Assembly (NCBI GenBank): GCA_017882765.1
Contig: JADGOW010000002.1
Coordinates: forward strand, 1 to 38,053
Reading direction: 5' to 3'
DNA: 38,053 bases
Source: Frankiaceae bacterium
GTDB lineage: Bacteria; Actinomycetota; Actinomycetes; Frankiales; Frankiaceae
The notes under the pieces are model-generated. The model was not told the origin of the DNA, ran no database searches, and saw only the letters and a list, made by a program, of their open reading frames with translations. Below, in pieces: positions 3,075 through 7,609 of the stretch (positions are counted from its first letter, which is position 1; every line of letters starts with the position of its first letter). The translations under genes were made by a program, and so were the position numbers.

Positions 3075-5648
3075 ATGCCTGAGGCAGCCGCGCCTCACGG
3101 TGTCGAACCTGCCACGACCCGAGTAGACGACCGCTTGGGGGAGGACACGGCCCCGGCGAAGGCGACCCGTCAGGATCAGCGGGCCCGTCCCAAGCGGGAC
3201 GGGGGTGCAGAGCGGGTCTCCGGTGACGATCTCGCAACCGAACAGGGGCTGGCTCCCGCACCCGACGTTGAGGTCGATCTCGGCCTGAACGACCGGGAGG
3301 TCGCGGCGCCTGAGGTCGTCGACGTCGAGTCGACTGAGGCCGCATCGCACTCCCAGGTGCTTCCCCGGCTGGGCAGCGAAGAGCCTGCTACCGGGCACCG
3401 TCGCCGGCGCTCGGCCCTGCTGCGTCTTGCGTCGTCACGGTCGGGGCCGCCGCTGCTGGAACCCGTGGTGCGGCGACTGCGTGACAGCCATCCGAAAGCC
3501 GATCTGGCCCCTGTCCAGCGGGCGTTCGAGCTCGCCGAAGCCGCGCATGCAGGCCAGCTGCGCCGAAGCGGTGAGCCCTACATCACGCATCCGGTGGCCG
3601 TGGCGGGAATCCTCGCCGACCTGGGCATGGACGTCCCGACTCTGTGCGCGGCCCTCTTGCACGACACCGTTGAGGACACCAACGTCCGCCTCGATCGGAT
3701 CCGGGACGAGTTCGGGGAGCTCGTCGCTGTCGTGGTCGACGGGGTGACCAAGCTCGACAAGGTCAAAGCCGGGGACGCGGCGGAGAGCGAGACCATCCGG
3801 AAGATGGTCGTCGCGATGGCCAAGGACCCGCGCGTCCTGGTCGTCAAACTCGCCGACCGCTTGCACAACATGCGCACACTGCGCTTCCTGCCCGAGCACA
3901 AGCAGGAACGCAAGGCACGCGAAACCCTGGAGATCTACGCGCCCCTGGCCCACCGGCTCGGCATGAACACGATCAAGTGGGAGCTGGAGGACCTGGCCTT
4001 CGCCACGCTGTACCCGAAGCGGTACGACGAGATCGTCCGCTTGGTCGCTGAGCGGGCCCCGAGCCGCGACACCTTCCTGCACACCGTCGTCGAGCAGGTC
4101 AGCCGCGTCCTGCGGGACGAGAAGATCCGCGCGGAGGTGACCGGGAGGCCCAAGCACTACTACTCGATCTACCAGAAGATGATCGGCCGTGGCCGCGAGT
4201 TCGCCGATATCTACGACCTCGTCGGGCTGCGAGTCCTGGTGGACACCATTCGCGATTGCTACAACGTCCTCGGCTCCGTCCACGCGGACTGGCAGCCGGT
4301 TCCGGGCCGGTTCAAGGACTACATCGCGATGCCCAAGTTCAACATGTACCAGTCGCTGCACACGACCGTGATCGGCCCGGAGGGCAAGCCGGTCGAACTG
4401 CAGATCCGTACGCACGCGATGCACCACCGGGCCGAGTACGGCATTGCCGCGCACTGGAAGTACAAGGAAGGCAGCAAGGGCACCCTGCACCGCGCGGCCG
4501 CGGGGATACAGGCGGGCGCTGCTGCCGACCAGATGGTCTGGCTGCGCCAGATCCTCGACTGGCAGCGGGAGACGAGCGATCCCGGTGAGTTCCTCGACTC
4601 GCTCCGGTTCGACCTGCAGGCCGCCGAGGTCTTCGTCTTTACCCCGAAGGGCGACGTGGTGTCCTTGCCGGTGGGAGCCTCCCCGGTGGACTTCGCCTAC
4701 GCGGTGCACACCGAGGTGGGACACCGATGTATCGGAGCCCGGGTGAACGGCCGGCTGGTGCCCCTGGAGAGCTCCCTCGACAACGGGGACGTCGTAGAGA
4801 TCTTCACGAGCAAGGCACCCAATGCGGGTCCCAGCCGGGACTGGCTGACCTATGTCAAGAGCGGCCGGGCCCGATCCAAGATCCGGGCGTGGTTCGCGAA
4901 GGAGCGGCGCGAGGACGCGATCGAGGAGGGCCGGGACGCCCTTGGCCGGGCGCTGCGCAAGCAGGGTCTCCCGCTGCAGCGGCTGCTCGGCGGGGACGCC
5001 ATGCTCACCATCGCCAAAGACCTCCGCTATACCGACGTTTCAGCCCTCTACGCCGCCGTCGGGGAGGGGCACGTGGCGGCGCAGGCTGTGGTGCAGCGCC
5101 TGGTCCAGTCCTACGGCGGGCCGGAGGGCGCCGTCGAGGACATCGCCGAGACGGCGGTGCCCACCAGGCCCTCGCGACCTCGATCGGTGGGTGATCCCGG
5201 GGTCGTTGTCCGGGACGCCTCCGATGTCTGGATCAAGCTCGCCCGTTGCTGCACCCCCATGCCGGGAGACCCGATCTGCGGGTTCGTCACTCGCGGCAAC
5301 GGGGTGTCCGTGCACCGCACGGACTGCGCCAATGTGCTCACGATGCGGCCCGGCCAGCGCGAGCGCATGGTCGACGTGGACTGGTCGCCGACGGCAGAGT
5401 CGGTCTTTCTCGTGGCGATCCAGGTGGAGGCGCTGGACCGCACACGGCTGCTCTCCGACGTTGCCCGGGTCCTGTCAGATCACCACGTCAATATCGTGTC
5501 GGCGATGGTCTCGACGACGCGCGACCGGGTCGCCGTGAGCCGGTTCACTTTCGAGATGGGTGACACCAAGCATCTCGGGGTCCTGCTGAAAGCGGTGCGG
5601 TCCATCGAGGGTGTGTACGACTGCTATCGGGTCGGCGCCACCCGTTAA
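3075..5648 (+). CDS. rel: Bifunctional (p)ppGpp synthetase/hydrolase Rel
   Basis: Makes and degrades the stringent-response alarmone (p)ppGpp. The 857 residues contain, in order: a poorly conserved acidic N-terminal extension (1 to about 125), the HD hydrolase domain (HDTVED at 196-201), the synthetase domain ([13 protein letters not shown] at 357-369, YQSLHTT at 425-431), a TGS domain (about 515-580), a Cys-containing segment ([14 protein letters not shown], 723-736) and a C-terminal ACT domain (about 778-850). The synthetase motif reads RFKD (412-415), the charge form typical of bifunctional Rel rather than synthetase-only RelA (ExDD). Both active sites look intact. The ATG at 3075 has a GAGGAG ribosome-binding site 7 bases upstream. 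A 5-10-codon-rich leader region lies between apt and this gene. Confidence 0.97.
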
Positions 5649-5668
5649 TAGCGGAAAACCGCGGCCGG

Positions 5669-5701
5669 TTGCGATCGGGCACACGGCGTGCCTGGCCGCA
5701 A
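5669..5701 (+). terminator. Imperfect hairpin after rel
   Basis: Arms TTGCG/CGCAA and GGGCAC/GTGCCT (one G-T pair) separated by a 3x3 internal loop, 20 bases after the rel stop. There is no T-tract, as is usual for actinobacterial terminators. Its 3' half overlaps the left arm of the 128-bp inverted-repeat unit. Confidence 0.4.
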
Positions 5702-5818
5702 CTGCATGCATGCCCTCGCCGATAACAAGATCTATCGTCTGGTCTATCCATGTTTGTCAGTACAAACCGGGCGGTCGGAGGCCTTGATCCGAAGAGCATG
5801 CATGCAGTTCCGGCCAGG
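5691..5818. repeat. 128-bp unit bounded by 23-bp inverted repeats
   Basis: The left arm is 5691-5713 (begins CCTGGCCG, ends GCATGCATGC) and the right arm is 5796-5818; they match as inverted repeats at 22 of 23 positions. The 82-bp interior looks less GC-rich than its surroundings and has a near-central GTTTGT-CAGT-ACAAAC palindrome (5752-5767). No gene is evident inside. It lies between the convergent rel and metallophosphoesterase genes. It could be a MITE-like element, a bidirectional terminator or a folded RNA; I see no clear target-site duplication. Confidence 0.65.
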
Positions 5819-5857
5819 ACCCCTGGCAGCCGGCCGCGGACCCGCACGTGGCTCCGG

Positions 5858-7609
5858 CTAGAACCCCTGCGGCTTGGCAACCAGCAGTTCCGTGTTGCGA
5901 TCTGTGGCCGCGCCGCGCCGGCCGTCGACCGTCGCCGTGTACCCGGTGCGGTCCTGCCAGTCGTTGGCCGCGAACTCGCGGGCCACGGACGCGATGGCCG
6001 CAGGTGTGTCCAGCTTGTCGTAGGCGGGGGCGGGGGCGGCGAAGTCCACGATCGTCGAGAAGATGGACAGCGTCCCGTCCTGGTTGTCGACCACCTCGAT
6101 CAGCCGTGACTGCGACGGCCAGTCGATGTGGGATGCCGTGTTGATTTCCCAGAAGCCTCCGCTGGCCCCCGACTTCGGGCGGGCCCAGATGTTGTTGTCG
6201 TGCGTGTGCCCGTTGACCCACGCAATGGCGTTCGGATACTCCAGCAACAGCTCCCTGACCTGGTCGCCGGTCACTCGCGGCTGTTGGGTCTTCGGGTCGG
6301 CCAGCTTCCCGTTCTCCATCGTGGTGATCGTGTGATGGCTGAAGACGATGACCAGCTTCTCGTCCGTCCGGGCCGTGTTGAGCTGGTCCTTGAGCCAGGA
6401 GAACTGTGCGGCGTCCAGCGACCCGTCTGCGCCCCCGTTCGGGTTGACCGTGTCCAGCGAGACAGCCCGGATCTGCGGCACCGGGTTGAACGTGTAATAG
6501 CCCGTGTCGCTGTCGATGTTGGCCTGGGTGAAGCCGTGGCCCACGGGCGTGCCCGTCGTCGTGAAGTGATCCTGGATGAATTCCCTGTGCGTGAGCACCT
6601 GGCGGGCCGGGTCTGCGGCGACGGTCCGGATTCGGGTGCCCTGAGGGATCTTCCCGGTCGCGACGAAGGAGGCGAGGAACGCCACTGCGGACATGCCCGG
6701 GGGCGGGTCCCAGACCTTCTGGTCGCCAACCGCGATCTCACGCAGTCTCGGGATGTCGGGGGGAATGTTGCCCTGAATCTCCCCGTCGTGATTGCCGAAC
6801 GTCACATACCACGGCATCCCGATCCCGGTGGACGTGAAAGGCCGCATCGCCGCGTCCATGAGGCCGGAGACGGTGGGGTATCCCCAAGTGGTCTTCGGCA
6901 GGTCTTCGGGCTTTCCGGCTGGGGTGCCATCGGGATGCCAGTAATGGACGTCATACCATTCGGGGTCGTCACCCTGCACGCCCTCCCACGTGCCCTTCTT
7001 GCCGCTGTCGGCGACGACTTGGTGCGCGCCGTCCAGGATGTCGATCTGCCAGCGCAGCTCGTTTTGCTGGCAGCTGTCGGCGATGTCGCCAGTGGAGATC
7101 GTGAATCCGAACTTCAGCCCGGAAACCGGACCGGAACCGATTGCGTTGATCGTCGCGGCCATGGTGTCGGCGACCTGCGCGGTGAGCATCTCCTGCGGGC
7201 GGTAGGCGGAGTTGAAGGTCGTATTGGTGCTCGGCGGGTCGCCGATGCGGTCGGTGTATTCCACCCGCAGCGGGGACTGGGCGTCGACGACGTGGACGTC
7301 GGTGATTTGGGCGAAGGCCAGCGTGCCCGTCCTGCGGTTCTCGCGACCTGCCTGCGCCTTGATGCCCAGGTCGGTACGCACGATGTAGGCCTCACCGGGA
7401 GAAGGCACCAACGGCACGTAACCGCCCTTGCCGGGCTTGCCGCGCAGCAAGGTCTGCTGGACGGTCGTGACCGGCTTCGGTCCGGTGGGAGTCGGCGTCG
7501 TCCCGCCGGAGTTCCCCGAGCCCGAGGCGCACGCGCCGATCCCGCCTACAGCTCCCACAGCAGCGGCGGCTGCGCCGCCTTTGAGCAGGTCGCGACGAGT
7601 GAATCGCAT
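5858..7609 (-). CDS. Tat-exported lipoprotein metallophosphoesterase (TIGR03767-like)
   Basis: A 583-residue calcineurin-like phosphoesterase, probably acting outside the membrane. The N-terminus has a twin-arginine motif (TRRDLLKGG, 4-12), a hydrophobic stretch and a lipobox IGAC with Cys27, followed by a Gly/Ser/Thr/Pro linker. The metal-binding motifs are complete: DVH (104-106), GD (174-175), GNHD (272-275), SHH (424-426) and GHTH (467-470). The substrate is not predictable. The ATG at 7609 is preceded on its strand by GGAGG at 6-7 bases. It reads towards rel and is preceded by a 36-codon membrane peptide gene that may share its transcript. Fold and motifs are certain; family name is from memory of similar actinobacterial proteins. 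Confidence 0.9.
   Translation of the reverse strand: MRFTRRDLLKGGAAAAAVGAVGGIGACASGSGNSGGTTPTPTGPKPVTTVQQTLLRGKPGKGGYVPLVPSPGEAYIVRTDLGIKAQAGRENRRTGTLAFAQITDVHVVDAQSPLRVEYTDRIGDPPSTNTTFNSAYRPQEMLTAQVADTMAATINAIGSGPVSGLKFGFTISTGDIADSCQQNELRWQIDILDGAHQVVADSGKKGTWEGVQGDDPEWYDVHYWHPDGTPAGKPEDLPKTTWGYPTVSGLMDAAMRPFTSTGIGMPWYVTFGNHDGEIQGNIPPDIPRLREIAVGDQKVWDPPPGMSAVAFLASFVATGKIPQGTRIRTVAADPARQVLTHREFIQDHFTTTGTPVGHGFTQANIDSDTGYYTFNPVPQIRAVSLDTVNPNGGADGSLDAAQFSWLKDQLNTARTDEKLVIVFSHHTITTMENGKLADPKTQQPRVTGDQVRELLLEYPNAIAWVNGHTHDNNIWARPKSGASGGFWEINTASHIDWPSQSRLIEVVDNQDGTLSIFSTIVDFAAPAPAYDKLDTPAAIASVAREFAANDWQDRTGYTATVDGRRGAATDRNTELLVAKPQGF

Follow-up and report, generated by a model that had tools for sequence, protein, structure and literature searches.

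A low-copy family of 136-bp non-coding elements with inverted arms at near-constant spacing in a Frankiaceae genome

What is the short unit with inverted ends that lies between two convergent genes, rel and a phosphoesterase gene, in a Frankiaceae bacterium, and what has kept it in shape? The usual description of small bacterial repeats is that of decaying hairpins. For this one the first-pass annotation of the window (the whole stretch of DNA analysed here, 38,053 nucleotides) had offered two readings, a MITE-type element or a large folded 3' UTR RNA shared by the two convergent transcripts. Our best reading is that it belongs to a family of small non-coding DNA elements that is old, low in copy number and found only in this lineage.

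The element at the rel/phosphoesterase junction

The rel gene, whose product carries HD, RelA_SpoT, TGS and ACT domains, has its stop codon at 5648, and the gene for a TAT-type (TAT-exported) metallophosphoesterase has its stop at 5858; gene and domain calls confirm that the two genes converge with the element between them. Direct comparison also bears out the annotated inverted arms, which match at 22 of 23 bases (5691-5713 vs 5796-5818) and both contain the palindrome GCATGCATGC. The arm match extends to 26 nt at 92% (5691-5716 and 5793-5818), and the interior is less GC-rich, as had been noted (53% vs 70.5% for the whole window). The inverted repeat of the annotated 128-bp unit thus stands, but its extent does not. 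In the 26 arms compared, conservation rises and stops sharply at GGTG/CACC (position -4), and this cross-copy conservation sets the true boundary 4 bp further out on each side. The conserved unit is 136 bp long (5687-5822) and of the form GGTG...CACC, which reads CGTG...ACCC in the window copy.

Inverted-repeat search and 26-arm conservation define a left arm at 5687-5718 on the forward strand, with the consensus GGTGnCTGGCCGGAACTGCATGCATGCCC, and a right arm at 5791-5822 on the reverse strand, in which the left-arm motif is inverted. About 28-30 bases are conserved per arm. The interior (5717-5792) is constant in length and contains two forward-strand blocks conserved in alignments A1 and A2, CAAGATC (5726-5732) and CCTTGATC (5782-5789). 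The most widely open reading frame is open in 8 of the 13 copies, and a coding element was rejected because no frame is conserved throughout.

The window copy is enclosed by a second, GC-rich inverted repeat of 14 bp (13 of 14 bases matching; pair I2), with its left half at 5659-5672 on the forward strand and its right half at 5826-5839 on the reverse strand, an arrangement that looks like an insertion of the element into a terminator loop; the outer repeat is possibly an older terminator hairpin. The other copies do not show it, their mean score being equal to the null, and insertion into hairpin loops as a feature of the family was rejected because the repeat is confined to the window copy.

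Copies, their surroundings and their distribution

The genome is a draft assembly (2.99 Mb, 292 contigs). Within it, BLASTN with the element as query returned 23 matches, and an arm search returned 29 sites at no more than 3 mismatches. Read with their flanks, these represent 13 full copies, each on a different contig. There is also one half-copy (contig C79:1355-1411; L098), which comprises a right arm and a TTGATC block and directly follows the stop codon of a gene converging with its neighbour. The sequence-only model R1 was built from the 13 copies and scores them at 75-101 bits, values that hold by construction; the next match in any genome, the half-copy, reaches 17.9 bits. Because of this difference the element is far beyond a chance hairpin. 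With R1, no decayed copies of intermediate score were seen apart from the one half-copy, and solitary arms in the genome were not clearly above control.

Using gene calls from a simple codon-score script rather than a full annotation, 12 of the 13 copies are wholly intergenic and the remaining one overlaps the ilvD stop by 8-9 bp, whereas only 5.2% of 128-bp placements in the window, which is 90% coding, fall wholly in non-coding DNA. Neighbouring genes are convergent for two copies, divergent for two and codirectional for seven, with C83 and C175 ambiguous on one side; where the genes are codirectional, the element points with them about as often as against them. No common theme was found among the flanking genes (rel, dapC/dapD, hisN-like/GDPD, alpha-mannosidase/GPI, ubiD/ccsB, ilvD and others). 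A regulon of one transcription factor was rejected on the lack of a common theme and on the copies between convergent genes, and a promoter role cannot be general because some copies have convergent neighbours and others divergent ones. At copy C271 (L097:1-342) the ilvD stop codon lies inside a degenerate left arm, so that the element and the end of this biosynthetic gene overlap. The product of the gene beside copy C248 (L092:2412-3431) has a match of AbiEi type at its N-terminus and is weakly MTES_1575/DUF559 endonuclease-like at its C-terminus; the gene is divergent from an SLOG/DprA-like gene.

Outside this genome the searches were negative. BLAST found no copy in 34 genomes of the same family, a comparison in which this genome is the only one of its genus, and the arm pattern gave a single isolated 2-mismatch site among them (in G020), read as chance. 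Across 394 Actinomycetes genomes (this one, the 34 same-family genomes and a sample of 359 others of the class) no match was found outside this genome, and R1 yielded chance-level matches only in 21 same-family and 13 same-class genomes. Exact arm patterns had 0 matches in GTDB220 and IMG/VR. A two-arm gapped pattern had 16 scattered matches from unrelated sources (11 GTDB, 5 viral), all without the GGCCGG context, which we read as chance; in the plasmid and the phage collections there was a single insignificant match each. With pattern, R1 and plasmid/phage matches all null or at chance level, relatives of the element elsewhere were rejected. The first-pass annotation had held that the lack of any other copy, in this or in related genomes, would count against its interpretation. 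Such a lack is what the relatives show, but this genome contains 12 more full copies.

Intergenic regions across genomes of this bacterial family differ strongly in length and sequence. At the rel/phosphoesterase junction no empty site was seen, rel not being found within the fetched flank in relatives with the phosphoesterase gene. The one junction conserved in relatives, dapC-dapD, has a gap that ranges widely in length and often contains an ordinary hairpin in place of the element. In four relatives (L111, L112, L114 and L129) the dapC stop is followed by ordinary GC-rich hairpins, and a TAGGGTC/TAAGGTC-like motif resembling a leaderless promoter immediately precedes the dapD start; in the present genome a similar CATAGGCT motif at dapC-dapD comes directly after the element.

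Arms, spacing and the explanations weighed

The arm-to-arm spacing is 103 bp in 11 of the 13 copies (102 in C83, which is one base short between the arms, and 104 in C280), and, as cut for alignment, 12 copies of the unit measure 136 bp and the remaining one 137. Pairwise identity is about 80% for the arms and 50% for the 80-column interior. The interior of C35 is 0.31-0.44 identical to those of other copies, compared with a reversed-orientation background of 0.32, with arms and spacing intact. On a star tree, the probability that 11 of 13 copies show no length change is about 4e-7 at an indel:substitution ratio of 0.05 and 0.013 at a ratio of 0.02; the size of this length-constancy result is uncertain because the ratios and the tree are assumed.

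Arms kept as a stem would be more alike within copies than between them. They are not (identity 0.752 within and 0.760 between copies, permutation p = 0.69, with the left arm of C83 one base out of register, which slightly lowers the within-copy value), and arm conservation therefore acts at the DNA level and not as a conserved RNA fold. RNAalifold found compensatory change in 0 of 16 arm pairs, a scan of all possible helices gave no interior stem clearly above cross-pairing controls, and among the Rfam 15 covariance models none matched at gathering score (two sub-threshold chance matches only). A role at gene ends as a transcribed hairpin, either a terminator or an mRNA-stability element, could draw on the strong fold of the window copy (-68.4 kcal/mol, z = -5.9 vs shuffles), on several copies that lie 9-43 bp past a stop codon and on the ordinary hairpins found in relatives after dapC, at the place of the element. 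Such a fold, however, would be expected from the inverted arms alone, and the arm comparison, the missing compensatory change, the two copies between divergent genes, the mixed orientation and the absence of an Rfam match make this explanation very improbable. As a general role, RNA hairpin or terminator was rejected on the covariation, arm-pairing, orientation and context tests, and the folded 3' UTR RNA of the first-pass annotation goes with it on the arm test, the lack of compensatory change, the divergent neighbours of two copies and the mixed orientation.

Several features of bacterial MITEs are present: terminal inverted repeats (arms of ~28 bp at both ends of 13 copies), multiple dispersed copies (13 full and one half) and no coding capacity. 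Target-site duplications are missing, none standing above shuffled pairs at k = 2-10 bp for any boundary tried, and for this reason we do not file the family as a MITE. No arm-like ends were found at four transposase loci in the draft genome (searched for the two DDE-domain families PF01609 and PF00665). As an autonomous parent, the one inverted arm-like pair examined (C140, 1.5 kb apart) was rejected; it spans ordinary genes. What survives of the MITE suggestion is the dispersal, the long inverted ends, the intergenic and non-coding nature and the restriction to a single genome; duplications, an empty site and, in the two families searched, a matching transposase were not found.

The ends are conserved, inverted and of the size of a binding site, the interior drifts and the spacing is constant; together these features suggest a protein complex that grips both ends across the 136 bp. 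We favour an old MITE-like, non-autonomous mobile element whose ends are putative protein-binding sites at fixed spacing for synapsis, and give this explanation about an even chance of being right. The unit would consist of two inverted putative end sites of ~28-30 bp, 103 bp apart, around an AT-richer and largely free interior. Both ends would be bound, and drawn to each other, by a transposase or recombinase provided in trans. The persistence length of DNA is ~150 bp; 136 bp lies below it, and synapsis over this distance would therefore require a fixed spacing and helical phase of the ends. Length would be kept while the interior drifts because the ends, as proposed, must synapse at a fixed spacing. 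The data themselves show a dispersed family with paired arms, a fixed spacing, a diverged interior, an intergenic position and no RNA covariation; mobility, the protein and synapsis as the cause of the spacing are what we infer here. Against the MITE-like element, the copies are too diverged for recent movement, and 13 full copies with one half-copy are fewer wrecks than expected from a decaying mobile family.

Fixed spacing and conserved arms around a drifting interior would also suit a host architectural or regulatory site pair, in which the inverted arms are contacted by a cellular dimeric DNA-binding protein, perhaps a nucleoid protein or a transposase that has been domesticated, with bending or looping of the intervening DNA; the copies would then be selected, functional chromosomal sites that are not mobile today. 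The missing target-site duplications fit this, as do 13 intact copies next to one half-copy and no intermediate decayed ones. However, flanking genes without a theme, positions between both convergent and divergent genes, and a restriction to one lineage that is unusual for a core chromosome system leave such a host site unlikely. A little less likely again, in our estimate, are lineage-specific chromosomal site pairs of helically fixed spacing at which a putative protein would loop ~100 bp, as a domesticated transposase or a new architectural element, with selection keeping the spacing and not the interior. A dead MITE family without present constraint, that is, old neutral relics of equal length owing to a low indel rate, would agree with the highly diverged interior, the missing duplications and the lack of an autonomous partner at the PF01609 and PF00665 loci. 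Yet the arms are much more conserved than the interior, length should have drifted at common indel rates, and a range of truncations would be expected where one half-copy is seen; we consider dead relics improbable. The MITE-like element is favoured over the host looping site, the dead relics and, last, the RNA hairpins.

Significance and comparison with known systems

The constraint appears to lie on end-to-end spacing and not on sequence or RNA fold, which would point to a complex joining the ends across less than a persistence length of DNA. The family is thus a compact natural test of whether end synapsis limits miniature elements. Were it a host site, the element would represent a chromosomal architecture system so far unrecognised.

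The Correia elements of Neisseria and bacterial MITEs are likewise small, non-coding, dispersed and intergenic, with long terminal inverted repeats; they usually have a TA terminus, target-site duplications and A+T-rich sequence (PMC10969869, PMC2229807). In contrast, the present element has GGTG/CACC termini, no duplication seen, an eroded interior and a spacing that is kept. ERIC (RU-1, 127 bp, enterobacteria) is nearly equal in size, intergenic and an imperfect palindrome, with short (7 bp) TIRs, TA termini, target-site duplications and a spread over many genera (PMC2229807), whereas our family has GGTG/CACC termini and ~28-bp arms and is known from one genome. YPAL (RU-2, 168 bp, Yersinia) shares the lack of TA ends, an overall composition that is not A+T-rich and the intergenic position, but has duplications of 3-26 bp and internal inverted repeats of its own (PMC2229807). 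The internal eliminated sequences of Paramecium are also very short transposon-derived units, although eukaryotic and excised by a domesticated piggyBac transposase; we claim no sequence relation (PMC3408717). They offer a mechanistic analogy only, in that their lengths show a 10-bp periodicity that has been attributed to looping and helical phasing between bound ends (PMC3408717).
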